49,349 bases of DNA from a virus. The stretch lies in the IMG/VR virus record IMGVR_UViG_3300035698_005639, positions 1 through 49,349 of that record, one strand, 5' to 3'. The translations under genes and the position numbers were made by a program. Shown in pieces: positions 5,065 to 47,243 of this stretch. Under the pieces are notes generated by a model that searched no databases, had not been told where the DNA came from, and saw only the letters and a list, made by a program, of their open reading frames with translations. Within the stretch, counting starts at the first letter, position 1, and each line of letters begins with the position of its first letter.

Positions 5065-7257
5065 TCATTCTAAGGATAATATTTTATCTAATTCGGCTAT
5101 CGCTGTTCTTGCTCTTCCCTGCAAATGCCCCAGCGCCTCACGCTCTAAAGAGTTTTTGATTAATATTTCACCAAACTTCTTCGTTGTTATTTTCTTTATT
5201 CCATCTCTCAGCCTTGTTAATTCTGGAACTTTTCTGGTTGCTATATCGCCGGGCATATTTTTATATAAATTCTGAATTGTACTTCTGATAAGAGAGTCGG
5301 GATATCCGATAGAAGAAACGCCCAAAGAACTTCCGTTATCTATGTAGGTAATTTTACCTGATTTTTTTATCAGGTAATTTCCTGCATGTCTGTCAGAATT
5401 GCCAATTAAAGAATCAAAGAAAGCCATCTTATCTTTTTCATATTTGTAAAGACTGCGCGTCTTATCTGTGAAAAATGTTTTTGGTTTAATGTCAATTGGT
5501 AAGGTGCCAGTTGTTGACCAATGCTGCAATGAACCAATTTCTCCTTTTATCTTCCTTATTACAGTAACTGGGACATCCCCAAGCCCTGCCTCTTCTGAAA
5601 TTAAATAAGCCGCCCTTTCTCGGATATACATCTTTTCCCCTGTTCCAAAGCCAGCCTCCCCCGCCATTGACTTGAATGCACCTTCACCGTTTCCTTTTAT
5701 CTTGACCCTTTTTACATTATTCTTCCCTTCTTCTACTTCTATGGATGATTGTATGTCGCCTGATACCATTGTTTTTTCCAGCTTCTCGGTCGTTTTCGCC
5801 GGTACAAATGCCGGTTCTGGTGCGGGTACAACTGGCTTTGGTGTTTCCGGAGCTTTCTGCGTTTTCTTTGTCCGGGCACGAGTATCATCCTTCGCAATCG
5901 GGTACTTCTTATTCATTTCACTTGCTGATTTGCCGACATCCTCTTTCTTGAATTGCTGCCCTTTTTCGATTTCCTTCTCAGAGGCAAATTCCTCTACGAA
6001 GGCGGCGAGGGTGTGAGTGCAGTTTCCAGACCAGCATGTTTTTCCGTTTCTGCGTACAAATAGGGTGTGATATTTTTCCAATTCAACACAATAAACCATA
6101 TCGTTATAATCGGTGGTTTTAATATCTTGACCGCTTATCAGTGCAAATGATTCCCCGTCATCCCATTCTGGTGTTACGCACAACCAATAGTGCGTTGATC
6201 CGGGCTTCCATATCATCATAATTGATGCTTGTTCAAAGAATATTTTATCTTCTTCGCCGTACCGATCCACGTATACCATTTTATGATTTGGCGTAACAAG
6301 TAAATCTATGTTATCATTGTTGTTAAAATGTACCATCACCTCAGAATATCCAGAATAATATCTCTTTATTGGCACGTACTCGGTTTTTTTAGTTTCCGGG
6401 TCTAACGACCAGCACAGATCATTTCGCTTTACGTCTTTGAATAGTTTCCACCCGTTATCTGTATATACTTCCGTGTCTTTTGAATAACAGTGGGGATGAT
6501 ACGGAGGCCGTGCCGCCAGCATCGGATACTTCCTGGAATTTCCTGATATGCTGAATATCTGATCTTCATACTGAGTACAGAAATCAACCGCGCCCGTATT
6601 GGAGATTATCACTAAATCAATGTCATACTCATTCAGGCGGTTTATTGTGCCTTCGGTGCGTACTGTTCTTGTCAACGTTCTGGAAAGCAAGTCTGCGTAT
6701 GCTGTGGCTTTCATTGTGACTTTGCCTACGGTTATCGTGCCGTTTATTGCACGTTTCCTCAAATCATCCAGCAACATGTTGCTCGTGGTTGCTCTTGTCT
6801 GACCTTCCACAATACCACCCGCGATCTTGCGAGCTATTTCCTTTTTGGAAACACCTGCCTGAACACGTCTCACATAATTCACATAAGTATTTTCAAGGGC
6901 ATCCGCAGTCACATTAAAATCACTTGCCGCGCCTACCGCCGCCACTCTCGCCGCATCTCTGTGCAATTTAGTGAACCCGGCAGTATACTCATTGCCGAGA
7001 AATCGTCTTAGCAATGCGTCATCCTGACCAATGCCAGCCTCGTAAGACTGTGGGATGTATCGTTTAGCCCATTTCGCATTAGTCTTTTTCAAATCTTTGA
7101 TGTGTTCTTGGATTGCGATAATTTTATGTGCCGCCTGTCGTTTAGTTGCTTCAGTAATATCTTCACCAAATACTACACCCTTTAATCTGGCTACTGCTTG
7201 CGCATAAATATCTACTGATTCCTGGCGTCCGGGAGTTATGGGGATGGGGTCGGCCAT
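5065..7257 (-). CDS. MuF-family minor head protein with mini-intein and PI3/4-kinase-like domain
   Basis: 730 residues in three parts. Residues about 1-256 and 413-430 form a Mu gpF/SPP1 gp7-like minor head protein: VRTEGTINRLNEYD, then AARPPYHPHC continuing after splicing as THTLAAF, which restores the conserved PPxHPxC motif. Residues 257-412 are an intein: Cys257, VTPNHKM with Thr322 and His325, YHTLFV with His397, Asn412, then Cys413. A Pro-rich linker (470-487) leads to a kinase-like domain, about 500-665: RERAAYLISEEAGLGDVPVT, GSLQHW, GNSDRHAGN (Asp622, Asn627) and YIDNGSS (Asp640), the catalytic and metal-binding pattern of bacterial PI3/PI4-kinase-like proteins. MuF proteins enter the head, so the kinase may be packaged and delivered; this is inferred. 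The 3' half is AT-richer than its neighbours. Confidence 0.85.
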   Translation of the reverse strand: MADPIPITPGRQESVDIYAQAVARLKGVVFGEDITEATKRQAAHKIIAIQEHIKDLKKTNAKWAKRYIPQSYEAGIGQDDALLRRFLGNEYTAGFTKLHRDAARVAAVGAASDFNVTADALENTYVNYVRRVQAGVSKKEIARKIAGGIVEGQTRATTSNMLLDDLRKRAINGTITVGKVTMKATAYADLLSRTLTRTVRTEGTINRLNEYDIDLVIISNTGAVDFCTQYEDQIFSISGNSRKYPMLAARPPYHPHCYSKDTEVYTDNGWKLFKDVKRNDLCWSLDPETKKTEYVPIKRYYSGYSEVMVHFNNNDNIDLLVTPNHKMVYVDRYGEEDKIFFEQASIMMIWKPGSTHYWLCVTPEWDDGESFALISGQDIKTTDYNDMVYCVELEKYHTLFVRRNGKTCWSGNCTHTLAAFVEEFASEKEIEKGQQFKKEDVGKSASEMNKKYPIAKDDTRARTKKTQKAPETPKPVVPAPEPAFVPAKTTEKLEKTMVSGDIQSSIEVEEGKNNVKRVKIKGNGEGAFKSMAGEAGFGTGEKMYIRERAAYLISEEAGLGDVPVTVIRKIKGEIGSLQHWSTTGTLPIDIKPKTFFTDKTRSLYKYEKDKMAFFDSLIGNSDRHAGNYLIKKSGKITYIDNGSSLGVSSIGYPDSLIRSTIQNLYKNMPGDIATRKVPELTRLRDGIKKITTKKFGEILIKNSLEREALGHLQGRARTAIAELDKILSLE
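6022..6489 (-). other. Mini-intein coding segment within the MuF gene
   Basis: 156 codons, Cys257 (TGT at 6487-6489) to Asn412 (AAC at 6022-6024), followed by the +1 Cys (TGC at 6019-6021). The blocks A, B, F and G of a Hint splicing domain are present and there is no room for a homing endonuclease. The penultimate residue is Gly (WSGN) instead of the usual His. Splicing would join PPYHPH to CTHTL and regenerate the MuF motif. Confidence 0.85.
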
Positions 7258-7265
7258 ACATTACC

Positions 7266-7769
7266 TCAGCCTCGTTGCAGGGTTATAGTGCGTTTAATTA
7301 ATCCACCGAGTTCTGATCTCGCGGCCGTGCATAGCTCTGAAGCTTGGAGAGCGTCTAATACCTCTGATGTCCTGCCGCCTGAATAGGACTTGACCCCAGC
7401 GTCAATCATTGCGCTGGTAGCTTCTGCTGCAGCCCCTCGCCGGATTAAATACTCTGCCTGAAATGCACATGCGCGCTCAACCGCTTTTGGGATAAACAAT
7501 GATGAATTATACACATTGCCTTTTATTGGGAAATGTAACGCCTGATAACTGTCGTGCGTCTCGGCGTAGCTATAATACTTCACGCCCGCTAAACGCTGCC
7601 GGTCTATCTGCTGGGTTGCGGTAGCAAGAGCGCGGTTCTTGTTTGCATCTGTCGCAGCATCCCATTTCGTAATGCCGAATTTGCCTTCGAGTATGGTTTC
7701 CGCATCTGCAAGGTCTACGTATGTATTGGCTGTTTTCGCTCCGGCTGTTGCTACTAATGTTATAGCCAT
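7266..7769 (-). CDS. Head-tail connector/adaptor protein (DnaT-like, HK97 gp6 type)
   Basis: 167 residues from ATG 7769, which overlaps the previous stop (TAATG); a start at 7787 would add six residues. The pattern ANTYVDLADAETILEGKFG, ALATATQQIDRQRLAGVKYY, then ALHFPIKG and a helical bundle (VERACAFQAEYLIRRG) is the signature of the adaptor family often misnamed DnaT-like. It docks under the portal and links it to the stopper. Next to the MuF gene, as usual. Confidence 0.75.
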   Translation of the reverse strand: MAITLVATAGAKTANTYVDLADAETILEGKFGITKWDAATDANKNRALATATQQIDRQRLAGVKYYSYAETHDSYQALHFPIKGNVYNSSLFIPKAVERACAFQAEYLIRRGAAAEATSAMIDAGVKSYSGGRTSEVLDALQASELCTAARSELGGLIKRTITLQRG

Positions 7770-8314
7770 TATCTTATTAAGCTCCATCCTATCAGGAGGA
7801 AGGCCATATCTACAATAGGACCCGATACAGGGCCTGTTCCTATATAGAGGTCAGCTATCTTCCCTTCCCTGATTCCAAAATAGACAAGTGCGTGCTCATT
7901 CCTGCGAGCGTCATAATCAAAGGGATTCCCATACTTAACTCCCTTGTAAGACCATTCAAAACAATTCCTGGCAAGCATCGCCCCGCCGATGATTCTCTTC
8001 ACCTTTCCCCATGAGGTTTGCTTTTTGTCCTTGTAGTTGGCGTACATAAACCAGCCAGTGATAATACTTCCTGCCCGAGCACCTGACGCGAAGGCATGAT
8101 AATTACCCTCATTCACAAGGTGGGTATCAGCATGTCTGAAGTGGTAACCATCTACCATACCATTCAGCGACTGAGTGGTACAGATAGCTCCTACATATCC
8201 CCACTTAAGCCACTGACTCGACACCCAACCTGTATTAATGACCTTATCCCAGGAGGCCGCCTTCGCAGTACTCACCATGAGAAACAAAAGTATTATTGTG
8301 ACCAGACGTCTCAT
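7769..8314 (-). CDS. Exported protein of unknown function in head module
   Basis: 181 residues. Classical Sec signal: basic MRRL, hydrophobic TIILLFLMV, cleavage after AKA (about residue 19). The mature part holds hydrophobic stretches (GSIITGWFMY, VDMAFLLIGWSLI) and aromatic and His residues (DGYHFRHADTHL), suggesting envelope association. Some resemblance to small bacterial membrane proteins but no family recognised. It lies between the adaptor gene and a large fibre-like gene that is also exported. Confidence 0.65.
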   Translation of the reverse strand: MRRLVTIILLFLMVSTAKAASWDKVINTGWVSSQWLKWGYVGAICTTQSLNGMVDGYHFRHADTHLVNEGNYHAFASGARAGSIITGWFMYANYKDKKQTSWGKVKRIIGGAMLARNCFEWSYKGVKYGNPFDYDARRNEHALVYFGIREGKIADLYIGTGPVSGPIVDMAFLLIGWSLIR

Positions 8315-8336
8315 ATTATTCCCTAATCTTTATCGT

Positions 8337-11129
8337 TTAACGGTGTATTAATTCTAACCTTGCGCGTAATGCTCGAACACCCATGTTGGCGGTGCTGGTT
8401 CTGTTTCGCAGCACAATATGTATTTCTTCGCTTGCCTCTAATTGCACATAAGAACTTGTTGATATAGCCCCTATATCATTGACAGTAAACCTTCTTAATA
8501 TGCGCGATCCTTCAATGACAACCGGTGCTGCGTGTGTGCCTTGTGCTATGGCGATTTCAACCTCCTGATTTTGCGTAGCGCAATAAGCAGCAAGATGTAC
8601 CACAGCAAGATACATACCGCCAACAGGAGCTATGAGATGGTCGTCGCTAAAGGTAACCTCATTCGTTTCTCCTTCCGTCCAACTACCATCAATTAATGTC
8701 CATTCATCTTTTGTCCCTATGGTCACCATTACGGTATTGTCTACCATATACATATCACCGTAAACGGGCGTTGACACTTCCCACTGTGAATCAGTCCCAT
8801 CGTATATTAGTATGGTGCCATCAGCAACCCCCGAAGTATAAACATCCTGTACTTCGGTGAGGTTAATATCCCAAGTAGTGGCGTCCGCAGTACCTGTTAT
8901 GGTTACATCGTCCGGTAAACCTATTTGAATATGACCTGCGGTATTGGTTATTTCGATCTCATCTGCTGTACCGGTGAGTGTAGATGCATTGGGATTCGTC
9001 CCACCTCCGATTAACAGTTCTCCGTTTCCAAGCACACTTGAAACTTCTATCGGGCCTGTGCCCGCGCCGAATAAAACACCATATTCGGTAAAGGTTGCGG
9101 CGCCCATGCCTCCGACACCTACAATAAGCGGATTGACAAGCCCCATCGTGATGTGACCGGGCGTGTTGGTTACATCGATTTCATTTGCAGTGCCCGTTAT
9201 AGTTGAGGGGTTCGGATTAGTACCGCCCCCAATAAGCAGCTCTCCATTGCCGAGAACAGAGATCACCTCTACGGCTCCCGTGCCGCCTCCGACCATAATA
9301 CCGCCATCGGTTAGGGAAGTTGTCTCAGTGCCGCCCTTTTCTACGGGAATAGTGCTACCAGTCCAGGTTCCTGTTACATTACCGGTTATATTGGCATTGC
9401 CGCCTATGTTGGCGTCGTTTGATGCGTGTACGTTATAAAAATAAGCGTCACCTGTTCCTGTGATACTTCCATCTATCGGGAAAGAAGCCATTGTAAAAGT
9501 ACCGTTATTAACATAACCATTGGCAGCTATAATAACATCAGCCTGCGACGCCAATGTTGCGCTACCGCCTATATAAAAACTGTAGGCACTTCCGCCAGAA
9601 GATGTGACGTGATAATGATTATCCATACTTCTAATGGTTCCATTGCCACCGTGATATAGCCCATAAGCTGCGTTATTGTTGTTCGCTACATGAACAATGT
9701 TGCTATAATATTCTTCCGCTGCGGCGGCTCCCACATAACCTACGCCTGCGGTAATCGTGGCTCCGCTATCATTGACATCTATATCACAACCGGTTATAGT
9801 CACTACGCCAGTGCCAGCGCTATAATCTGAGACTGATATAAGAGCAGTCCCGCTATTATCTACATCAATATTAACACCATCTGATATGGTTATAACGGCT
9901 CCCGTTCCTGCGACAACCGCTGCTTTTATAGCGCCACCGCCACCATTACCAGTATGATTATAATCAATCGTACCTCGTTTTATCTTAACTGTTGCAGTTG
10001 CACTTACGCAAGCTGCCTGAGTAGCCGCCACCACAGCGGCAGAGGTAGTCATACCTACATGACATCTATAAAGGATAAAACTACCAGAACCTTCAACTGT
10101 ATTAATTGCAGTTGTCGCAGCAGTCACTGCCATCTTAATGTCTCTAATAATACAGCCGGTATAAGCGCCAAAGTTAGCTATTCTTGCATCTACTGAGGTA
10201 ACAGTCACTTGTATGGGAGATGCGCTCATACCCACTACATGCTGATCATTCGCAGTGAAGTTAATAGTATCATCTGTATAAGTGCCGGGATAGACTAAGA
10301 ATAAAGCTCCGCCTGTAGGGTTAGCGTCTAACGCCGCTTGGGTGGTTGCGTACTCTCCGCCTACAGGTGAGATTGTATGAGTATTTGTTTCACTCGTGTT
10401 AATCTGATCGGCGGAGATTGTGTTGGATATAATTGTGGTTGCCCGCACTGAATCAGCCTGTATATGGGAAAATGTTGAGTCTTTCATTACCTGAGACGTA
10501 GCCGCAATTGCGCTATCGGCAAAGTCAATAACACTCGTGGCGTCTAAATTGCCTGCGTTGATCTCTACCCAATAACCACCCAAAGAATCGTAGGAAAATA
10601 ATGCGGTTTCAAATTCTCCGAGAGTCATATTGTTGTTATCTCGAAGTTGAATTCCACTGCCTGAAAGAGTGCTTTCATCCTGAATCGTTACTGCATAAGA
10701 TGAGCCCTGAACGATTATAAATTCCCCGTCCTCTGTACCCGATGCCATAGTGGGTGTTGAGATTAATGTTACAGCGGCACCGCTACCGTTAATAAATACC
10801 TTCGGCGCATTGGGATTAATCGTATTTGCCGCAGCCAATGTTTGGATGTCAGAAGTTGAGGAAATCATGGTACTGGTTACGCGAAAGAACGATACAAACA
10901 TGCTGTCTGACTGCAATCGCGCAAACGTGGAATCGCTAATAACGCGGCTGGTGACAGCTATGGCACTATCGGCGAATGCCCTGACCTTGTGAGCTTGCGG
11001 GTCCTCCTCGTGAAGCTGGTAGGTCTGTGCAAGGGCATATTCACATGACGATCCCAGCAGTATTGCCAGAGCAAGTAAGAGAATACCTATAACAAACGCC
11101 TCTTTGAGAATACAGCGCAGATTATTCAT
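8337..11129 (-). CDS. Large exported fibre-like protein: beta-helix, tandem repeats, jelly-roll end
   Basis: 930 residues. N-terminal signal (FVIGILLLALAILLG, probable cleavage after YALA at about 35). Two related spacers, about 52-76 and 203-227 (FADSAIA.TS.V..DSTF...Q.DS). Residues about 258-530 are Gly/Asn-rich short strands typical of a right-handed beta-helix (pectate-lyase fold). Two tandem repeats at about 606-665 and 681-739 share SVLGNGELLIGGGTNPN. Residues about 790-930 look like a C1q/TNF-like jelly roll (HLIAPVGGMYLAVVHLAAY), the usual trimeric tip of fibres. Architecture suggests receptor or glycan binding, as a head fibre or on the cell surface. The signal peptide is unexpected for a virion protein. 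Overlaps the upstream gene by four bases. Confidence 0.75.
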   Translation of the reverse strand: MNNLRCILKEAFVIGILLLALAILLGSSCEYALAQTYQLHEEDPQAHKVRAFADSAIAVTSRVISDSTFARLQSDSMFVSFFRVTSTMISSTSDIQTLAAANTINPNAPKVFINGSGAAVTLISTPTMASGTEDGEFIIVQGSSYAVTIQDESTLSGSGIQLRDNNNMTLGEFETALFSYDSLGGYWVEINAGNLDATSVIDFADSAIAATSQVMKDSTFSHIQADSVRATTIISNTISADQINTSETNTHTISPVGGEYATTQAALDANPTGGALFLVYPGTYTDDTINFTANDQHVVGMSASPIQVTVTSVDARIANFGAYTGCIIRDIKMAVTAATTAINTVEGSGSFILYRCHVGMTTSAAVVAATQAACVSATATVKIKRGTIDYNHTGNGGGGAIKAAVVAGTGAVITISDGVNIDVDNSGTALISVSDYSAGTGVVTITGCDIDVNDSGATITAGVGYVGAAAAEEYYSNIVHVANNNNAAYGLYHGGNGTIRSMDNHYHVTSSGGSAYSFYIGGSATLASQADVIIAANGYVNNGTFTMASFPIDGSITGTGDAYFYNVHASNDANIGGNANITGNVTGTWTGSTIPVEKGGTETTSLTDGGIMVGGGTGAVEVISVLGNGELLIGGGTNPNPSTITGTANEIDVTNTPGHITMGLVNPLIVGVGGMGAATFTEYGVLFGAGTGPIEVSSVLGNGELLIGGGTNPNASTLTGTADEIEITNTAGHIQIGLPDDVTITGTADATTWDINLTEVQDVYTSGVADGTILIYDGTDSQWEVSTPVYGDMYMVDNTVMVTIGTKDEWTLIDGSWTEGETNEVTFSDDHLIAPVGGMYLAVVHLAAYCATQNQEVEIAIAQGTHAAPVVIEGSRILRRFTVNDIGAISTSSYVQLEASEEIHIVLRNRTSTANMGVRALRARLELIHR

Positions 11130-11680
11130 TTTATCACTCCGCCCTTCTTGCTATACCATATCAGACGTGATGTCGGTGTCGTTGCTGATGCCAAAGCATA
11201 ATGAGCTTTCGCTTCTGATATTGAGGCTCCCCCGTTATAACGAAACATATAATCGCCATCTGCGGTTACAATAGTAGAATCACCGTCTGCGTCAAGATTT
11301 ACCCAGCCGCCCCCGGGCAGTTTTCCTACAATACGTACCCTTATAGTGTCTGCTATTGAGGATACAGTCAGAGCATAGGTGACTTCCTGAAAGCCGTCTA
11401 TCGTGTCGGGCGTCGAATAGGTATTCGCTGTAGTGAGCGTGTCGGGACCGGAAACATAACCATCAGATTTCGCTACCCAGACAGAGCCGATATAATTATA
11501 AGTTCTGCCGGTATCGGTTTCATAAAATTCAGCTCCGGACAACACACTCGTGGTCGGCTTTGAATCAGTCGAGCGTCCCAAGTATGCTACTGGCGACCCG
11601 TATTTGATTACTATCGCATAAGCGCTAATCGATGCCAAGAGTAGGCAGAGGAGCGCTATGGCAAAGATGCGCTTTTTCAT
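11126..11680 (-). CDS. Exported beta-rich protein upstream of the fibre gene
   Basis: 184 residues from ATG 11680 (MKKRIFAIALL), one base after the previous stop; the longer open frame is out of context. Sec signal with hydrophobic core and cleavage after AYA (about residue 22). Mature part begins IVIKYGSPVAYLG and includes GAEFYETDTGRTYNYIG, a phrase common in phage fibre proteins, then beta-rich sequence. Probably works with the 930-residue protein, which its stop overlaps. Confidence 0.7.
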   Translation of the reverse strand: MKKRIFAIALLCLLLASISAYAIVIKYGSPVAYLGRSTDSKPTTSVLSGAEFYETDTGRTYNYIGSVWVAKSDGYVSGPDTLTTANTYSTPDTIDGFQEVTYALTVSSIADTIRVRIVGKLPGGGWVNLDADGDSTIVTADGDYMFRYNGGASISEAKAHYALASATTPTSRLIWYSKKGGVIK

Positions 11681-11681
11681 A

Positions 11682-11948
11682 TTATTCACTCGTTTCTTCC
11701 GGGCCTGTTGGCCCTGGTTCGGGTTGATCTTCTTCCTGTTCCGTCGGAGGCTGGAGTTCAGGCGGTTCTTTGTATTTGAGCTTCCTGAGTTTCGCGATAA
11801 CTTTGGGATCATCGGTTGTGAAATGACCATTTCCATCAAACCTGCAAAGAGCTTTGTTGGCCGCTGCGTCCCATTGTACTCCACCGCCAGCCTTTCCCAA
11901 TATTGGAATACAGGTGAATGTTATAGGTGCTTTTTTCTTTACTGCCAT
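11682..11948 (-). CDS. Small Pro/Glu-tailed protein of the head accessory block
   Basis: 88 residues from ATG 11948 behind AAAAGGA. Starts MAVKKKAPITFTC, contains GGGVQWDAAANKALCRFDGNG and ends in an acidic Pro-rich tail (PPTEQEEDQPEPGPTGPEE). No known domain. No signal peptide, so unlike its neighbours it should stay in the cytoplasm or virion. Confidence 0.6.
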   Translation of the reverse strand: MAVKKKAPITFTCIPILGKAGGGVQWDAAANKALCRFDGNGHFTTDDPKVIAKLRKLKYKEPPELQPPTEQEEDQPEPGPTGPEETSE

Positions 11949-11952
11949 GTTG

Positions 11953-12072
11953 TTACGTCCTTTTTCTGTTCTTTGGTTGTTTGCTTGGCGGGCATCCACC
12001 GCGACCTTTATTTGCTCTTGTCCCGTTACCGCTGCCGTCCCGCCTTGGAGTACCCTTTTTTGTTACTGCCAT
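11953..12072 (-). CDS. 39-residue basic Gly-rich peptide
   Basis: ATG 12072 behind AGGAT, stop TAA five bases before the next start. Begins MAVTKKGTPRRDGSGNGTR and ends GCPPSKQPKNRKRT. The N-terminal MAVxKK is shared with the next gene. Very basic and disordered, similar in style to tiny Gly/Arg-rich phage proteins near capsid genes. Function unknown. Confidence 0.55.
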   Translation of the reverse strand: MAVTKKGTPRRDGSGNGTRANKGRGGCPPSKQPKNRKRT

Positions 12073-12095
12073 AATGCTTATCCTGTTGTTTTGTT

Positions 12096-12124
12096 AAGAG
12101 GCGAGCCGTTTCTACTCGCCCCTT
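12096..12124 (-). terminator. Hairpin after the beta-helix gene, weak terminator or attenuator
   Basis: Arms 12096-12105 and 12115-12124 pair over 10 bp with one G-U, with a 9-base loop. On the minus strand only TCTT follows before AACAAAA, so termination would be partial. It lies between the exported beta-helix gene and the 39-residue gene and could set expression levels or protect RNA ends. The rest of the gap, 12125-12193, holds nothing else I recognise. Confidence 0.45.
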
Positions 12125-12193
12125 TTTGGGTGATTACCAATGGCCAAAACAGCCAATGGCTAAAACTGCCAAAGACAATAAATCTATGCCTGG

Positions 12194-13204
12194 TTACGGT
12201 CCAGTGACCTCCCAAACACTCGTGCCATTAATGTTGGTGACATTACCGGTAGTATATATAGCACCTCCAGTATGGCTTATCGCGTCACCGCCTGAACCCG
12301 TAACAATGATATTATTTATGACGTGTGTTTCGCCCGCAGCTTCCAGGACGCCGGTAGCCGATGCCTCAGCTTCGATAAAGTTATTAATTATTATCGAGCC
12401 GGTGGCATCGTATCCAGTTGTAATGCTTATAGCAGTACCGGATTCACGAATAATATTACCGACAAGCGTACAGGATTTGAAGTATGAATTCGTGCCATCA
12501 TCAACAAGCAAGAAGTTGTCAAAGCCATCGGTCGAAGATGATATGATTACATCGCAGTCGATTACATCAAGCCCGACAGCGTCTTTTACGTAAATGCCAT
12601 ACGTGGCAAGTCCCGGAGTGCCTTGCTCGAAAGTGCAATGGTCGAATAATACTTCCTGTGCATAATCGAATGAGACTTGAGGATGTGCCGTGTCGGTGCA
12701 GAACGAAATATTGATAAATTGCGTTCCGAATGTAATTACATCTGCGGCAGCATTACCCGAATCAGCAGTATGCACAAGGGCGCTTCCTGACACCGGATGA
12801 ATTTCTACTCCTGCACCCGATACTCCTCTTTTACCTAATCCAATAAGCGTACAGGAATAGGGCATTGTAGTAAGGTTTTCAGCGTATACGCCGGGGTTAA
12901 TAAAGATATGACTACCCGGAACAACGCCGCCTGTAGTATCTGCATTTGCGGCAGTAATACCTTCGGCGATGGTTTTAAACGCTGTTGACCATTGATCACC
13001 ATCTCCTGAAGCGGTTACGTTTTTGTCAACATAGAAAGCATGTGCCGGGTTTACTATATTCCCAACATCACGCAATTCCTCTATTGCTCGCCGTACTCGG
13101 GGCCGTACTCCAACGCCAAGCTGTTCCCAAACTGCCAGTGAGGGGCCAACTGTAGCCAACAGCAACAGGAGCGACAAACAGAGGATTCTTTTCATTGTGT
13201 TCAT
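12194..13204 (-). CDS. Exported right-handed beta-helix protein
   Basis: 336 residues from ATG 13204 behind GGGAGGCAAGGA. Sec signal (MKRILCLSLLLLLATVG, cleavage after SLA). Then FYVDKNVTASGDGDQWSTAF and IFINPGVYAENL, the entry motif of pectate-lyase-like beta-helices, followed by many short strands with Gly/Asn turns. A 172-residue homologue of its N-terminal part is encoded at 22260. Placed directly after the capsid gene, it may bind or cut surface glycan; no catalytic residues can be assigned. Confidence 0.75.
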   Translation of the reverse strand: MNTMKRILCLSLLLLLATVGPSLAVWEQLGVGVRPRVRRAIEELRDVGNIVNPAHAFYVDKNVTASGDGDQWSTAFKTIAEGITAANADTTGGVVPGSHIFINPGVYAENLTTMPYSCTLIGLGKRGVSGAGVEIHPVSGSALVHTADSGNAAADVITFGTQFINISFCTDTAHPQVSFDYAQEVLFDHCTFEQGTPGLATYGIYVKDAVGLDVIDCDVIISSSTDGFDNFLLVDDGTNSYFKSCTLVGNIIRESGTAISITTGYDATGSIIINNFIEAEASATGVLEAAGETHVINNIIVTGSGGDAISHTGGAIYTTGNVTNINGTSVWEVTGP

Positions 13205-13244: not shown

Positions 13245-14183
13245 TTATGATGTTGCACAGCCGGTTATTGTACCATGCATCCATTTGGGGCCATGATCAA
13301 GCCCGATCTGACCATAAAGCTGACCTTTGTCTGCGGCTCCTGTTGGCGCCAAAGGTTGGTAGAACAGTCCGCCCTTTTTGGGTACTTCCTGGAATACCGG
13401 CGCACATACCGAAAGCTCGGCAAGAGTCACAGTAGCGGCAGGCTGGAACGAGTCAAGAATAACACCGATAAGTCCGAAGTCGGTTTCTATCTGCTGAATA
13501 TTGAGACCTCCTACGTCTCGTGAGGTGGGCGCATATCCGTAAATTTCAGAGAGTACCTGTTTTTGGAACGCATTAACGATAAACGCGGCATTCGCGAAAA
13601 TCGCTCCTGCGGCATACATGGTTCTGAGTAATTCCTGAACTACTGGCTTGGTAAGCGTTGCGCCTCCTGCGGCGACGGTATTCCCGGCATCGCTCGCACA
13701 TTCAATCAAGCCTCTTGTGCCATTTGCAACACCGGAGCCGGTTGAAACTACATACGTACCCTGTAAGATTGAAAACTCCACATCCCTGGCTATTTCTTCC
13801 AGTTTTCGTTTTATCTGGAAGTCATAACTTGCTGGTGAGGCAAGATTGTCGGTTGGGCCCGTGATTCCTGACAATCGGTTTTGGTTACTTATTGCCTGAT
13901 AGGTAACCAATATAGAATGATGGTGAATCTCGCAGACGTTATATACCTGAGTGGTTACGACATCCACTGCCGTGGGTGCGTCAACGCTATCATCTTCCGT
14001 GATTGTGGTCTGTGCGGCGGCTGGTATGGAATATTCCGCGCTTACCGGAAACGTGAAGTTCTGTGAGAGCTTCCCGCCATTCAAGCCCCCTATTGCTGAG
14101 AGGACAGGGGTGCGAAGAGGGCTGGCGGTGTACAATTCACCGATATAGTTTAAGAGCAACCACGCTGATCCTGTTGTGGCCAT
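13245..14183 (-). CDS. Major capsid protein (HK97 fold, SU10-like)
   Basis: 312 residues, just after the scaffold gene and two genes after portal. The features fit SU10-type/DUF5309-like major head proteins: an N-terminal arm, a long helix KRKLEEIARDVEFSILQG, then RGLIECASDAGN, LLRTMYAAGAIFANAAFIVNAFQKQVLSEIYG, DVGGLNIQQIETDFGLIGVILDSF. These proteins build the icosahedral shell. Position and length agree. Confidence 0.85.
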   Translation of the reverse strand: MATTGSAWLLLNYIGELYTASPLRTPVLSAIGGLNGGKLSQNFTFPVSAEYSIPAAAQTTITEDDSVDAPTAVDVVTTQVYNVCEIHHHSILVTYQAISNQNRLSGITGPTDNLASPASYDFQIKRKLEEIARDVEFSILQGTYVVSTGSGVANGTRGLIECASDAGNTVAAGGATLTKPVVQELLRTMYAAGAIFANAAFIVNAFQKQVLSEIYGYAPTSRDVGGLNIQQIETDFGLIGVILDSFQPAATVTLAELSVCAPVFQEVPKKGGLFYQPLAPTGAADKGQLYGQIGLDHGPKWMHGTITGCATS

Positions 14184-21572: not shown

Positions 21573-21848
21573 TCAATCGTGGCGTGCCTGCTTTCTTTGT
21601 GTCTTTATTCGATATATTGCCGCATAATTAAATACCCGTACTCTGGTTTTTGCCGGACGTGTACCTCTTGTATTAGGAAGTTTTGTCATATAGCGCAATG
21701 CGTCAAGGCTATGATTAGGTGCACTTTCTGTGGATTCAAGCAAATTTAAGTCTGGCTTTTTCTTTTCTTGCCTTAACAAACATCCTATTCCCGAAGTTGC
21801 CGCCACTGCCAAACCCCCGATAATACTGAATATCTTTCTGCGTTTCAT
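21573..21848 (-). CDS. Small exported lipoprotein-like protein
   Basis: 91 residues from ATG 21848 behind GAGAGGA. N-terminus MKRRKIFSIIGGLAVAATSG then Cys: a basic head and hydrophobic core with a possible but atypical lipobox (GIGC). The remainder is basic and Pro-containing. It resembles the upstream gene's MNRRTILGLLGSLVAAAS signal, so the two probably share origin of their leaders. One base separates the genes. Confidence 0.55.
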   Translation of the reverse strand: MKRRKIFSIIGGLAVAATSGIGCLLRQEKKKPDLNLLESTESAPNHSLDALRYMTKLPNTRGTRPAKTRVRVFNYAAIYRIKTQRKQARHD

Positions 21849-21849
21849 G

Positions 21850-22113
21850 TCATATCCTCTCTTTTGCTGAGTGAAATACGGGCTCTGTGATTTTTGGGGG
21901 ATTGGCATTCAAAAGATCAATAATGGGACTGTTGATTGTGGGGTCATATCCAGTAAGGGTCAGGTGCTCAAAATCTCTCCCGACCTTCTCAAGTCTCCTG
22001 GCAACTTGTCTTTCGTATTCTGAATTGTATTGGAGTTGCAGGAAGCAGCTTGGATTTATAGATGCCGCTGCGACAAGACTTCCCAATAGACCAAGTATCG
22101 TTCTGCGATTCAT
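21850..22113 (-). CDS. Small exported lipoprotein-like protein
   Basis: 87 residues. MNRRTILGLLGSLVAAASINPSC looks like a signal with Cys at the end of the hydrophobic core. Mature part: a helix (EYERQVARRLEKVGRDFEHL), then INSPIIDLLNANPP. Strong AGGAAGG ribosome site. Function unknown; probably envelope-located. Confidence 0.55.
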   Translation of the reverse strand: MNRRTILGLLGSLVAAASINPSCFLQLQYNSEYERQVARRLEKVGRDFEHLTLTGYDPTINSPIIDLLNANPPKITEPVFHSAKERI

Positions 22114-22138: not shown

Positions 22139-22267
22139 TCATTCCCAAGCAGTATTGTTCTTTCTCTCTCTCTGGAGTATTCGGGGAATGGCATCCATGA
22201 GAATATCCTCGGCAAAACACACACTCACCGCAATCAACAGCATCACTAACAGCATTAGCTTATTCAT
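22139..22267 (-). CDS. 42-residue secreted peptide
   Basis: ATG 22267 behind AAAGGAAAG, overlapping the end of the upstream gene by eight bases. MNKLMLLVMLLIAVSVCFA is a textbook signal with cleavage before EDILMD; the mature part is about 23 residues (IPRILQRERKNNTAWE). Below usual gene-finder length cut-offs. Function unknown, likely periplasmic. Confidence 0.55.
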   Translation of the reverse strand: MNKLMLLVMLLIAVSVCFAEDILMDAIPRILQRERKNNTAWE

Positions 22268-22778
22268 CGGCTTTCCTTTCTGTGATAACGGTGTCTTTCC
22301 ATGTATGATTGGTACTACAATCTCTGAAAGTCCATATAGTTGTTTCGGGTTCGGCTATAACGGGGTCGTCTACCGCCTCTATGTAGATTGTATCCCCAGC
22401 GGCCTCTTGCGGGCTTGCAATTTCTACATTGCCAACGCCAATTATAGCACAGCAATCGGGTAATCCTGCTATGTATTCTTCGTATATTCCGGGCCCAATA
22501 AATATATTATTCATTGGTATTGGGGGAACATTTTCATTCTTCTTTATCTCCTTAATCGCTTCGTTAATTGTTTTGAAAGCCGTTGTCCATTGTCTGCCAT
22601 CACCTGATTTTTTTACACGGCGATCAACATAGTATGTTCTCTGTTTTTTCTGTGGCAATTGCAGCATAAGTGATTCTATGTGACTATTGATTACACAATT
22701 GATTGCAACCAAACCGAGAAGAATAACGCATGCCGAGAACCCAATTGTGAGTAATAATGTCCAGGTTTGCTTATTCAT
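22260..22778 (-). CDS. Membrane-anchored beta-helix fragment, paralogue of the 12194 gene
   Basis: 172 residues from ATG 22778 (seven bases after the AAAGTAGA ribosome site). One membrane helix (LLLTIGFSACVILLGLVAI), then YYVDRRVKKSGDGRQWTTAF and IFIGPGIYEEYIAGLP, the same entry motif as in the exported beta-helix protein (YVD...SGDG.QW.TAFKTI; IFI.PG.Y.E). Only about two coils of helix follow, so it is a short or truncated paralogue. It may bind the larger protein or act as a plug on the envelope. Confidence 0.65.
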   Translation of the reverse strand: MNKQTWTLLLTIGFSACVILLGLVAINCVINSHIESLMLQLPQKKQRTYYVDRRVKKSGDGRQWTTAFKTINEAIKEIKKNENVPPIPMNNIFIGPGIYEEYIAGLPDCCAIIGVGNVEIASPQEAAGDTIYIEAVDDPVIAEPETTIWTFRDCSTNHTWKDTVITERKADE

Positions 22779-22787
22779 AATCATTCT
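22776..22787 (-). repeat. Start-site repeat, copy 1 (with 23089-23100)
   Basis: Identical 12 bases reading AGAATGATTATG on the minus strand, ending in the start codon. A second copy starts the gene at 23091; both have a purine-rich ribosome site just upstream. Adjacent bases also match partly. Confidence 0.5.
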
Positions 22788-26029: not shown

Positions 26030-26214
26030 GACTTCCTCTTCATGCTTTCGCGTTGCTCTTTTAGCATCTGTTCTTCAGTCCGGAATTCAGGACAGTTAGG
26101 ATTCTTGGGGTCGCCGTTTTTCACGACACAACACCCCGTGCCAGCCAACCCCATGCCATACGCGCAGTGCAACCACTTGCATTTCATGTCTTTTCTGTCT
26201 ATTCTGTCTATCAC
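26026..26214 (-). CDS. Cys-rich small protein, GTG start
   Basis: 62 residues from GTG at 26214 (GTGA overlap with the upstream stop, AAGGAAA ribosome site supplied by the upstream gene's last codons). CKWLHCAYGMGLAGTGCCVV...CPEF has five Cys and could bind zinc. An ATG at 26187 is the alternative start. Confidence 0.5.
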   Translation of the reverse strand: MIDRIDRKDMKCKWLHCAYGMGLAGTGCCVVKNGDPKNPNCPEFRTEEQMLKEQRESMKRKS

Positions 26215-26873
26215 AATTTTTCCTTCCTTGGTATCATGGGCGTGCGGACTATCAGGTTGTACATGACTTTAGCGGCAAGCATAAAGGCTGGGAAATTATC
26301 ATTATTAATGGCATCCCTCGCATAACGCCATTCTTTTACACAATAGTCAATTGTGCCGCCAAGGGCGCAATTGCATGATTTTCCCGTTTGTTCTCGCCGG
26401 TTAATAAATCCGCCGCTTAGAACTTCCTCAATGTAATAATAGCAATAACTACACGGCTGCTTGCCCTCTTCATCCCACCACTTCTTAGCCGCTCCCATGT
26501 TTTCACACGCCATTCCCCGAAACCACTTATCGCGACCTTTTTGCTGAACTCCTTCGAGTACAATCTGCTCGCCAATGTCGCGTGTTGACGCACTCAAGAT
26601 ACCGCAGAAGAACGGGGAGGCCGAACTCGAAACAGACATTTTCGGCTCTTGCTCCTCTGCCGCCTCACGATAGATTTCACATTCACTGCACGGTGGCCGT
26701 CCGCACTTCTCGCAGACCTCCCCTACCTCCTCCAAGCCAAGGGCTTCGATGAGAGCTTTGTCTCCCGTCCGGGTTGAACAAAGCACCTTCCCTTCGCCTT
26801 CTTTTTTGTAAGAATACCGCACATCGCCTTCTTTTACCCACAGCCACAATTTTCCGCTAAATAGCTTTTTCAT
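26211..26873 (-). CDS. Cys-rich double zinc-motif protein, tandem paralogue A
   Basis: 220 residues. First motif CEKCGRPPCSECEIY (about 54-68); second, CSYCYYY...CNCALGG...CVKEW, followed by ARDAINNDNFPAF and a helix. About half identical to the next upstream gene in the aligned parts, so a recent tandem duplicate. The second half also matches the 102- and 97-residue proteins at 32952 and 40909 in layout. Probably zinc-binding; partner unknown. Four-base overlap with the neighbour. Confidence 0.65.
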   Translation of the reverse strand: MKKLFSGKLWLWVKEGDVRYSYKKEGEGKVLCSTRTGDKALIEALGLEEVGEVCEKCGRPPCSECEIYREAAEEQEPKMSVSSSASPFFCGILSASTRDIGEQIVLEGVQQKGRDKWFRGMACENMGAAKKWWDEEGKQPCSYCYYYIEEVLSGGFINRREQTGKSCNCALGGTIDYCVKEWRYARDAINNDNFPAFMLAAKVMYNLIVRTPMIPRKEKL

Positions 26874-27511
26874 GGTTTTTCCTTCCTCGGTATCATGGGA
26901 GTGTGGTCAATCAGGTCACACATGGCTTTAGCGGCAGCGTGGAATGCTAAGAAGTCTTTGTTGTGGATGGCTCTTTGTACAGCGCGCCATTCCTTCACGC
27001 ATACGCCGCGACTGCCGCCGAGGGCACAGTGGCATGATCTGGTTCCATCATTCGGCTCGGCCAAGTAATAATTGCAATAACTACACGTGTTGCCGCCTTC
27101 ACAATGCCACCACTCTATTGCCTCGCCTATGTTCTTACACGCCATTCCCCGTCGCCACTTCTCAAGGCCTTTGCGCCTGACTTTCATTAGTTCGGCGAAT
27201 TGAGCCTTTGGAATACCATACCCGTTATAAAACACATTGTCGCTAAGGGGTATTGTTGGCTCTCTCTTCTCATAGATTTCACATTCCTTTACCGCCTCGG
27301 TGTATACTTCACATTCACTGCACGGTGGCCGTCCGCACGTCTCGCATACCTCCTCGGCCTCCTCAAGGCCAAGGGCTTTGATGAGGGCTTCGTTGATGCA
27401 AACGTGCTCAGACGCCCTCTGTTCCACTCCGCTTTCTCGCGTAAAATACACATTCCTACATCCGCCGCCCTTTACGAACCACATCTTCATGTCATAAACT
27501 CGCTTTTTCAT
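26870..27511 (-). CDS. Cys-rich double zinc-motif protein, tandem paralogue B
   Basis: 213 residues. Same two motifs as its duplicate: CETCGRPPCSECEVY, then CSYCNYYLAE...CHCALGG...CVKEW, AIHNKDFLAFHAAAKAMCDLI and TPMIPRKEKP. Also shares ALIKALGLEEAEEVC in front of the first motif. The last codons (AAGGAAAAACC) act as ribosome site for the duplicate. Confidence 0.65.
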   Translation of the reverse strand: MKKRVYDMKMWFVKGGGCRNVYFTRESGVEQRASEHVCINEALIKALGLEEAEEVCETCGRPPCSECEVYTEAVKECEIYEKREPTIPLSDNVFYNGYGIPKAQFAELMKVRRKGLEKWRRGMACKNIGEAIEWWHCEGGNTCSYCNYYLAEPNDGTRSCHCALGGSRGVCVKEWRAVQRAIHNKDFLAFHAAAKAMCDLIDHTPMIPRKEKP

Positions 27512-32770: not shown

Positions 32771-32952
32771 TTCTCCGCGCCTTGTTGGACTTCCGGGGTC
32801 CAGGGTGCTTTTCCACAGGCATATTGTACCCTATCAAAAATACCCTGCTCTCGCTGTACCTCATGGGTTGCCAGCATTGCAACGCCGCCAGAGGCAAAAG
32901 CGACAAATCCGTATTTCTGTGCCAGTTTCATAACTTCATCCCAGTGATCCAT
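32767..32952 (-). CDS. Small conserved-looking protein
   Basis: 61 residues from ATG 32952 (AAAGGAG five bases upstream, provided by the last codons of the preceding gene). MDHWDEVMKLAQKYGFVAFA, GGVAMLATHEVQREQGIFD. One helix-strand motif, no domain recognised. Confidence 0.5.
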   Translation of the reverse strand: MDHWDEVMKLAQKYGFVAFASGGVAMLATHEVQREQGIFDRVQYACGKAPWTPEVQQGAEK

Positions 32953-33260
32953 CAATTCTCCTTTGCCTCATCGCGAACTTTCTTGATTATAGCCACGATA
33001 ACCAACGCCTCGTCGTGCGCTTTGGGGAAGTCGTTGTCTCCAATCGCCTCACACCACTTTCTCAAATGACCGTCGCAGCAACGTTCGTTGATATAGAGGA
33101 GACATTTAAAACAACGACCGCCAGAGCGTTTGCCTGAGCGTATGCAAAATTCGCACCACGTCTCCTCTAATATTTTTCGCATCTCCTCGCAACTCTCAGC
33201 CTCAGCGATGGGAATCCACCGCTCTTCCAGCGTCTTTTCTGCCATTTCCAGGACTGTCAT
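32952..33260 (-). CDS. Cys-rich zinc protein, dispersed paralogue C
   Basis: 102 residues behind AAGGAGG. MAEKTLEERWIPIAEAESCEEM then CEFCIRSG...CFKCLLYINERCCDGHLRKW, AIGDNDFPKAHDEALVIVAIIKKV. Same N-terminus and Cys pattern as the gene at 40909 and same layout as the second halves at 26211 and 26870. Likely one or two zinc sites. The end codons AAGGAGAATTGA are the next gene's ribosome site. Confidence 0.6.
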   Translation of the reverse strand: MTVLEMAEKTLEERWIPIAEAESCEEMRKILEETWCEFCIRSGKRSGGRCFKCLLYINERCCDGHLRKWCEAIGDNDFPKAHDEALVIVAIIKKVRDEAKEN

Positions 33261-40908: not shown

Positions 40909-41202
40909 TCAATTCTCCTTTGCCTGATTCCGAACTTTCTCGATTATCTTCACGATTTTAAGAGCCTCTTTGCGGGCTTTGCGCAACTTATTTTTGCTCA
41001 TGGCATTTATCCAAGAATTATAATGACCATTACAACACCACTTCTTACCATTAAGCGGGCACAAAGAACAACGATCATAATATTCGCAGAATTTACAGAC
41101 GGTACGAACATCTATTTTTCGCATCTCCTCAATGCTTTCCGCCTCAGCGATGGGATACCACCGTTCTGCCAGCGTTCGCTCTGCCATTTCCCGGACTTTC
41201 AT
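40909..41202 (-). CDS. Cys-rich zinc protein, dispersed paralogue D
   Basis: 97 residues behind GGGAGGG. MAERTLAERWYPIAEAESIEEMRK is almost the same as in the gene at 32952; then CKFCEYYDRCSLCPLNGKKWCC and ALKIVKIIEKV. Two zinc-knuckle Cys groups. Ends with the same KEN-stop. Confidence 0.6.
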   Translation of the reverse strand: MKVREMAERTLAERWYPIAEAESIEEMRKIDVRTVCKFCEYYDRCSLCPLNGKKWCCNGHYNSWINAMSKNKLRKARKEALKIVKIIEKVRNQAKEN

Positions 41203-43661: not shown

Positions 43662-43832
43662 TCAACTTACCAGGTGCTTCGTTAATTCGCATCTTAAGCG
43701 GCGATACTCGTCTATGCTGATCTTGCCCTTATCAAATTGTTTCTTTAATAGCCGCTCCCTGTGCAGGATAAAATCACTGTGGAATTTCCTACGTCCGGAA
43801 TCACCGTCAATCATGTGATTTATGCTTTTCAT
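43662..43832 (-). CDS. SHOCT-like short protein
   Basis: 56 residues from ATG 43832, overlapping the upstream stop (TAATG). The end LLKKQFDKGKISIDEYRRLR is like the SHOCT module (short helix, G-x-I-T/S-x-x-E-Y/F), which often mediates oligomerisation. Basic middle. Last gene before the terminators. Confidence 0.5.
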   Translation of the reverse strand: MKSINHMIDGDSGRRKFHSDFILHRERLLKKQFDKGKISIDEYRRLRCELTKHLVS

Positions 43833-44302
43833 TACCGCGGCACACTGAGCCGTTGTCTCGGGAATATCAAATTCTCGTTTTCTATCTGATCCCGGTTCGC
43901 AAAGAATATCAGAGGCCATTCCCAGGGATCACCGTAAATACTGGGCTTCTTTGCGATATTCCACAGACAATCTCCATTTACGACCTCATACCATGTCAAC
44001 TGTCCAGTTTTTCTTGTCAGTTCATCAATGCGTTGCTGGTATTCAAGGGATTTGTTGACAAGATCGTTGCGCTCTTCCCGTAGTGCCTGTATCTCGTCCT
44101 TATATCGCACCGCCTGATTCTGGTATGCTGAGATTGCCGTCTGATATTCGCCTACCTGTTCCGTGAGTTCGTCATTCTGGCGGGTAATAACCTGATTGCC
44201 AACCTGTAGGGCAGCGTTTTCAGTAGTCATGCGCCTTATCTGATTACCGGCGCAACCGCTAAATATACTTAAAGCCAGTAAAATACAATATACCCTTTTC
44301 AT
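43832..44302 (-). CDS. Lipoprotein with coiled coil and LysM domain
   Basis: 156 residues. MKRVYCILLALSIFSGC (lipobox, Cys17), coiled coil about 25-100 (NQVITRQNDELTEQVGEYQT onward), then about 104-156 LysM-like: WYEVVNGDCLWNIAKKPSIY, DPWEWPLIFFANRD, ENLIFPRQRLSVP. Should sit in the outer membrane or periplasm and bind peptidoglycan, perhaps as a spanin-like or lysis-timing protein. Ends in TAATG with the next gene; four-base overlap upstream. Confidence 0.75.
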   Translation of the reverse strand: MKRVYCILLALSIFSGCAGNQIRRMTTENAALQVGNQVITRQNDELTEQVGEYQTAISAYQNQAVRYKDEIQALREERNDLVNKSLEYQQRIDELTRKTGQLTWYEVVNGDCLWNIAKKPSIYGDPWEWPLIFFANRDQIENENLIFPRQRLSVPR

Positions 44303-46265: not shown

Positions 46266-46364
46266 TCAAATAGACAGCAGGGTTATTCCCACTGCAAAGC
46301 GTAAAACGTGCAGGGCGTAAACCTTAAGCCCCGTTATGGTGACTATGATCAATAGTGTTAGCAT
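46266..46364 (-). CDS. 32-residue membrane peptide
   Basis: ATG 46364 overlaps the stop of the peptidase gene (TAATG), coupling it to that gene. MLTLLIIVTITGLKVYALHV then LRFAVGITLLSI: hydrophobic, one or two short helices. May be a holin or holin partner. Confidence 0.5.
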   Translation of the reverse strand: MLTLLIIVTITGLKVYALHVLRFAVGITLLSI

Positions 46365-46837
46365 TAAGCGGCCTTTATCTTTATGAGGTATGCCTCGATT
46401 GCCAGATACCCTCCCCGCTCGTCTCGATACCATCGGCTTTCGGGTCCGTCCTCTGCTATATTCCGGGTGTCAATGTGCAGCCCTGGGAAGTTCCAGTGCG
46501 GATAAATACCAAGTCCGCCCCAGCGATAACGTTCCGCCATTGCCCATTGTATGAGCATAGGAAGCGTTTCATGATTCCCGTTAGTCAAAGTCTGGTAAAA
46601 ATGAAAGTCGATTGCCTCACCCGTATAATGCTTGCTCTTTGATGCCCAGTGCTCGCCGTGGGCGGTATAATCAGAATGAACTTGAAAGCCGAGCATGGGA
46701 TTTCTTATGGTTTCGTTGGTTATCATCCGGTCGAATAAAATTATTGTCCAGGAATTCATCTTAAATGGATTACTGAAATGCTCTGGCTTTACCGTGAGTG
46801 TGTGCTCAAATACGATTTCAATGGGTTCGGTTTTCAT
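46364..46837 (-). CDS. Peptidase M15-family endolysin
   Basis: 157 residues from ATG 46837. SKHYTGEAIDFHF (His-x3-Ala-x-Asp zinc motif) and NFPGLHIDTR (second His) mark an M15 D-Ala-D-Ala carboxypeptidase-like fold; also RYRWGGLGIYPHW, the usual GGxGxYP stretch. It cuts peptidoglycan cross-bridges in lysis. No signal peptide, so it depends on a holin. Confidence 0.8.
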   Translation of the reverse strand: MKTEPIEIVFEHTLTVKPEHFSNPFKMNSWTIILFDRMITNETIRNPMLGFQVHSDYTAHGEHWASKSKHYTGEAIDFHFYQTLTNGNHETLPMLIQWAMAERYRWGGLGIYPHWNFPGLHIDTRNIAEDGPESRWYRDERGGYLAIEAYLIKIKAA

Positions 46838-46852
46838 TATGCCCCACATAGT

Positions 46853-47065
46853 TTAAAGAGTTCTAATCAGCCAGACACCTATTCCGATAGCAACTGGTAT
46901 AGCGCCGCCGATAAGTCCCCAGACGCCTGATTTCACTTTTAATGATGTTATCTCATTGCTCATTTTGTCCATGCGTGCATCAAGTTTTTCATAACTATTG
47001 CCAAGACGCTCAAGCTCTTTAAGAACATATTTACTCCATTCATTCCAGTCGTTTTCAGGAGGCAT
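46853..47065 (-). CDS. Coiled-coil protein with C-terminal membrane anchor (XhlA-like)
   Basis: 70 residues from ATG 47065 behind GGCAGGAAG. Coiled coil (YVLKELERLGNSYEKLDARMDK), then a membrane helix GVWGLIGGAIPVAIGIGVWL. This matches small XhlA/holin-accessory proteins next to phage lysins. Confidence 0.6.
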   Translation of the reverse strand: MPPENDWNEWSKYVLKELERLGNSYEKLDARMDKMSNEITSLKVKSGVWGLIGGAIPVAIGIGVWLIRTL

Positions 47066-47243
47066 TTTCTTCCTGCCTTTGTTTGTATGGACAGTTATCA
47101 CACATATTGTCAGTCAGTTTTTCTGTTAATTTCCGAAGGTGTACGATGTTTTCTTGTGTGCTGTTATCACTGCGCCTTCTGTTGAATAATCGGCCATTGT
47201 TGCCTAATAAACGCATTAACCTTGTGGGTAAACTAATTTCCAT
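47055..47243 (-). CDS. Small basic protein
   Basis: 62 residues. MEISLPTRLMRLLGNNGRLFN, NIVHLRKLTEKLTDNM, CDNCPYK: basic with one CxxC. Overlaps the anchor-protein gene. No domain recognised. Confidence 0.45.
   Translation of the reverse strand: MEISLPTRLMRLLGNNGRLFNRRRSDNSTQENIVHLRKLTEKLTDNMCDNCPYKQRQEENAS

Follow-up and report, generated by a model that had tools for sequence, protein, structure and literature searches.

Predicted Sec signal peptides on four proteins encoded in the head module of a tailed phage, and their possible role as exported head accessory proteins

The window analysed here is a linear IMG/VR virus record of 49,349 nucleotides (IMGVR_UViG_3300035698_005639) from an uncultured tailed phage, in which the genes discussed all lie on the minus strand. 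Its head genes follow the order terminase, portal, scaffold, major capsid protein (MCP), SP1, an 88-aa gene, SP2, SP3, SP4, adaptor and minor head protein. The MCP is SU10-like (13245..14183; Pfam PF17236, 1.6e-56). Directly downstream, 40 nt past its stop codon, begins the gene for SP1 (12194..13204; 336 aa), which combines a signal, a presumed anchor motif and a right-handed beta-helix-type body. The next gene encodes a conserved 88-aa head-module protein without a signal (11682..11948); this protein has homologues in many MCP loci, carries the pattern 'GxxWDxxxxxxLCxFxxxGxxxTxD' and is a syntenic marker behind the decoration gene. It is followed by SP2 (11126..11680; 184 aa), in which a signal precedes a domain common to a 185-aa protein of the related locus L082, by the fibre-like SP3 (8337..11129; 930 aa) and by the orphan SP4 (7769..8314; 181 aa), both also with a signal. 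The downstream border of this interval is the gene for an Ad1-like head–tail adaptor, or connector (7266..7769; phrog_477, 2.4e-15), whose earliest possible ATG lies at 7787. The minor head protein encoded beyond it (5065-7257) contains an intein-like insert (TIGR01445/TIGR01443, below cutoffs) and a C-terminal PI3/PI4-kinase-like or SCO1664-like domain, an unusual fusion for a head protein. An earlier, sequence-only reading had placed four signal-bearing proteins of 181, 930, 184 and 336 residues between capsid and connector genes as one block. Their lengths and positions are borne out, and all four genes do lie in the head module, but the block is not continuous, the signal-less 88-aa gene standing between SP1 and SP2.

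Signal peptides were identified by a tripartite rule requiring a positive n-region, an uncharged h-region and small residues at positions -3 and -1. All four proteins were flagged, with h-region scores of 3.28-3.54 and at least one positive residue at the start, which agrees with the clear signal peptides claimed earlier. By eye, the predicted cleavage sites are SLA|VW in SP1, AYA|IV in SP2, ALA|QT in SP3 and either AKA|AS or KAA|SW in SP4, giving predicted mature N-termini at V25, I23, Q35 and A20 or S21, respectively; the AxA sites described for all four are thus literal in SP2, SP3 and SP4, whereas SP1 has SLA. Plausible ribosome-binding sites precede all four genes, and the start ATG of SP1 comes after AAAGGGAGGCAAGGAC. 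No in-frame start was found near the cleavage site of SP1, where the V25 codon is GTT, or of SP3, which makes an internal start yielding a signal-less form unlikely; the idea of a cytoplasmic form of SP1 or SP3 produced in this way was set aside on that ground. The background consisted of 194 unique loci with related MCPs, from each of which the genes lying up to 5 kb downstream of the MCP were taken. The rule flagged 10 of these 1185 genes (~0.8%), several of which proved by eye to be membrane proteins, lipoproteins or false matches. At that rate, four flagged genes among the five of the interval would correspond to P of about 2.5e-8. This figure is optimistic: genes that lie side by side are not independent and could have a single evolutionary cause, and the window has further membrane-protein and lipoprotein genes. 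As predicted by a crude sequence rule, the presence of Sec signal peptides at the start of SP1–SP4 is confirmed. Export of the signal-bearing proteins is likely on these predicted features, and we infer that the signals of SP1–SP4 are cleaved.

Several other genes of the window encode proteins with membrane- or envelope-related features. A lipoprotein with a coiled coil and a LysM-like end (43832-44302) is encoded close to the genes for an M15-type peptidase (46364-46849) and a small TM protein (46853-47101); this group probably serves lysis or envelope functions and suggests a diderm host. Two small genes at 21573-22113 have twin-arginine or lipobox-like N-termini (MNRRTILGLLGSLVAAA; MKRRKIFSIIGGLAVAATSGIGC). 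Additionally, two duplicated-gene pairs with stretches 74-83% identical and no assigned function were observed, at 26211-27511 and at 32952-33260 / 40909-41202.

Within the head operon the SP genes follow one another closely, except that 245 nt separate SP1 from the 88-aa gene. Promoter- and terminator-like sites at these genes are no more frequent than in shuffled sequences, in a scan that is blind to other promoter types. The GC content of SP1–SP4 equals that of their neighbours, which speaks against a foreign cassette. This close packing, the normal composition and the lack of promoters or terminators beyond chance indicate that the SP genes are probably late genes expressed together with the capsid, a timing that makes early exclusion functions less likely.

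In most relatives, the gene right after the MCP encodes a protein of small to medium size whose N-terminus bears a motif of the GIxPELRxxI type; in many of them, including L202, L203, L207 and L239, this post-MCP protein is only 50-70 aa long and consists of the motif and a Ser/Thr-rich tail. SP1 is homologous to proteins of this slot (phmmer 6.5e-16 against that of L041). Its mature length aligns with the post-MCP proteins of L041–L043 and L201/L204, all signal-less, and the alignment opens at residue 26/27, immediately past the signal (residues 1-24). Since these relatives begin 'MAFEWRELYPGVRPATREAI' and 'MENEKLGPGVNPRVRRAI', the signal of SP1 appears as an addition between initiator and anchor. 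Across the predicted cleavage site the sequence reads SLA|VWEQLGVGVRPRVRRAIEELR, and the motif LGVGVRPRVRRAIEELR occupies residues 29-45. A 13-residue matrix built from 139 post-MCP N-termini, with SP1, its homologues and the L048 protein left out, scored 12.8 at residues 30-42, just behind the cleavage site; the other 15,223 stretches of the window's proteome all scored lower. The P-x-hydrophobic-R/K motif was found in SP1 and in neither SP2–SP4 nor the L048 protein. Between SP1 and the L201 protein, 13 of 17 residues are identical in the motif segment, compared with 75 of 262 elsewhere. The motif is among the best conserved parts of SP1 relative to its relatives, which argues that the interaction it serves is still under selection; from its position and breadth of occurrence, this interaction would be binding to the capsid.

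The body of SP1 is supported as a beta-helix by its L201 homologue, which passes the Pfam Beta_helix cutoff. No recognised enzyme family of the kind that would mark a secreted depolymerase was found with this beta-helix, the match of SP1 to pectinesterase PemA being weak (46 residues, E 0.0014, 17.6 bits against a cutoff of 700). A signal-less protein of Cellulophaga phage phi4:1, marked as found in virions by MS/MS, matches the cap domain of SP1, though weakly when the full collection is searched (E 0.02). The AlphaFold model of SP1 (pLDDT 42) was too poor for a fold search, and a single-sequence search of viral contigs retrieved no close relatives of SP1 or of the portal. A second protein with the SP1 cap domain (22260-22784; 40% over 77 aa) is encoded far from the head genes and has a long hydrophobic N-terminus with no clear cleavage site.

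SP2 contains the domain 'TDSKPTT..GxxFYETDTGRTYxYxGSVWVxK' and has 'TD(T/S)KPTT...YxxxTGxTxxxxGxxWVxK' in common with the 185-aa protein of L082 (phmmer 8.1e-6). The latter occupies the slot of SP2, before the adaptor and not directly after the MCP, and its N-terminus is MSLSRQTEILE where SP2 has the signal. An N-terminus of the form MSxxRxTEILE is found in L082 and in the SP2-slot proteins of some 15 relatives; SP2 lacks this motif. SP3 looks fibre-like, from a weak PHROG tail fibre match (0.0073) and, by inspection, from its repeats, an internal beta-helix-like stretch and a C-terminal fibre-tip-like stretch. The fibre-like and beta-helix proteins described earlier can therefore be identified as SP3, mostly by inspection, and SP1, through the Pfam match of its homologue. 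Single-sequence searches that included viral contigs found no homologue of SP3 by sequence and no close relatives of SP4. No homologues of SP4 were found in phages, the PDB, a few related records, or two sets of genomes, 14 surrounding an Omnitrophota MAG and 296 surrounding a Bacteroidetes MAG; the set of 14 yielded no match to the portal either. The AlphaFold model of SP4 was unusable (pLDDT 36), and the protein is possibly membrane-associated. No obvious membrane anchor is seen in mature SP1 or SP2. For SP3 and SP4 there is no homologue to indicate a place in the virion, and a head role for these two is presumed. Export for Bacteroidetes-type O-glycosylation was considered and rejected, the motif counts being not enriched in SP1, SP3 and SP4 and at most weakly so in SP2.

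A search of the related phages for the same arrangement showed that signals recur, each time on a different type of protein: among the 194 relatives, an interval protein carries one in L048, L060 and L179. In L048 it is a 360-aa protein directly after the MCP, which scores nothing for the motif; in L060, a 127-aa protein after the 88-aa homologue, cut by the contig end; and in L179, a protein that lies before the adaptor and measures about 165 aa when read from the start that includes the signal. The L060 protein has relatives without a signal, which carry the annotation 'virion protein' in cyanophage S-SCSM1 and adjoin the terminase in MW202879; a signal-less relative of the L179 protein occurs in Methanosarcina virus MetMV. 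L179 also has a long glycosyltransferase-like ORF (7378-8934) inserted between neck and tail genes. Furthermore, signal-peptide genes lie in the structural regions of two spring-water phages from Manatee Spring that were reached through related terminases (L255:19546-19941 and L256:16164-16736). Independent gain of signals in different lineages is the simplest reading of this pattern. Position, annotations and the MS/MS-marked phi4:1 protein indirectly suggest that the head accessory proteins of this class are present in virions.

We tentatively propose, with nearly as much confidence as doubt, that SP1–SP3 are Sec-exported, cleaved head accessory proteins, with SP4 as an exported partner, that are mounted on capsids at or after lysis. 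They would be accessory proteins of the decoration or head-fibre type that acquired Sec signal peptides. Made late alongside the capsid, they would be exported across the inner membrane, lose their signals and fold outside the cytoplasm. In SP1 the motif would then stand beside the new N-terminus, as it stands at the N-terminus of the signal-less relatives, and would allow capsid binding once lysis mixes periplasm and cytoplasm; decoration would accordingly take place at or after lysis. SP4 would be a further exported partner, perhaps membrane-bound. In favour of this proposal are the signals on four of the five interval genes, the homologies of SP1 and SP2, the retained motif, the late operon, the signal-less virion-annotated relatives of the L060 protein, the phi4:1 match and the recurrence in three phages. 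Against it stand the separation of capsids and exported proteins in different compartments until lysis, the weakness of the phi4:1 match, the absence of the motif from the L048 protein and of its relatives' N-terminus from SP2, the want of informative homologues for SP3 and SP4, and a literature in which we found no precedent. The wider reading, that a tailed phage sends decoration proteins through Sec and mounts them at or after lysis, the signals having been added independently to different head accessory proteins in several lineages, is quite possible though doubtful.

The sequence-only reading had instead seen a non-structural, secreted or surface system that alters the infected cell, a view that is partly supported. 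The corresponding rival explanation is that former head proteins now act in exported form, either secreted or on the surface of the infected cell, with no virion role and serving adhesion, superinfection exclusion, debris binding or polysaccharide degradation. We regard this as a serious possibility, though somewhat improbable. The Sec signals, of a cleavable type on all four proteins, fit it; beta-helix and fibre domains are common among adhesins and depolymerases, SP1 has its weak pectinesterase-like stretch, SP2 is without the N-terminal motif of its relatives, and SP4 resembles no known head protein. On the other hand, SP1 keeps the presumed capsid anchor right behind the cleavage site, signal-less homologues of SP1 and SP2 occupy the same slots in relatives, and the genes of this supposedly separate system lie within the late head operon with no promoter of their own detected, which is late for exclusion. 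The retained anchor of SP1 and the late operon tip the balance towards exported head accessory proteins and away from envelope or secreted proteins arisen by exaptation, while a host-envelope or extracellular function is still conceivable, for SP4 in particular.

The hydrophobic N-termini might also remain uncleaved and hold head accessory proteins at the inner membrane as tethers, for instance to bring capsids or their assembly there. This would account for such N-termini on head proteins, fits the late position together with the capsid genes and has a parallel in the hydrophobic N-terminus of the second cap-domain protein; it is unlikely, since the short h-regions of all four proteins, together with their small residues at -3/-1, are characteristic of signals that are cleaved, and a tethered protein would point to the periplasm, away from the capsid. 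That the signals are artefacts of wrong start codons or chance hydrophobic stretches is very improbable: crude as the tripartite rule is, it flagged four separate genes with plausible ribosome-binding sites against a low background in relatives, SP1 and SP3 offer no alternative start near the cleavage site, and homologues begin at the residue following the signal.

Tailed-phage particles are thought to be built from cytoplasmic proteins. If head accessory proteins were exported and added later, phages would gain access to disulfide bonds, periplasmic modification or timed decoration, and cytoplasmic assembly alone would no longer reveal what a virion contains; if instead these proteins remain with the host after export, they would clearly exemplify the conversion of a head protein into an envelope or extracellular one. 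Because one and the same slot is found both with and without a signal, the question can be tested directly.

The closest counterparts of SP1 are the post-MCP proteins of phages with SU10-like MCPs (L041, L201, L003, L098 and others), which share its slot directly after the MCP, the N-terminal P-x-hydrophobic-R/K motif, a variable display domain and the 88-aa gene next to them, but begin at the motif, whereas SP1 has a Sec signal before it. Exported envelope proteins with Sec signals are known from tailed phages in Lom and Bor of lambda, Lom being encoded within the structural region. SP1–SP4 are likewise phage-encoded with Sec signals; unlike Lom and Bor, SP1 and SP2 have homologues among head-module proteins and are encoded in the late head operon, and the SP genes appear to differ from typical morons in their position inside that operon with no promoter or terminator above chance. 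SP1–SP4 show no lipobox or sign of a named outer-membrane family, and searches of Pfam, PHROG and NCBIfam linked them to neither Lom nor Bor nor any other named exported family. Virion proteins with cleavable Sec signals are represented by the filamentous phage coat proteins pIII and pVIII of M13, which assemble at the membrane during extrusion. In contrast, the window has an SU10-like MCP, portal, terminase, scaffold and connector and belongs to a tailed phage, and our literature search found no precedent for Sec signals on tailed-phage decoration proteins. Phages of Porphyromonas gingivalis encode signal-peptide proteins that follow the Bacteroidetes Q rule (PMC10367356) and, like SP1–SP4, are of unassigned function and adapted to host Sec export; the portions of that paper considered here draw no link from them to head accessory proteins. 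SP3 and the L048 and L060 proteins similarly have Q at or near the new N-terminus, whereas three of the four signal proteins of the window depart from the Q rule. Sec-exported phage coat and envelope proteins are thus known elsewhere, and what seems new here is the presence of predicted Sec signals on head-operon proteins of a tailed phage.
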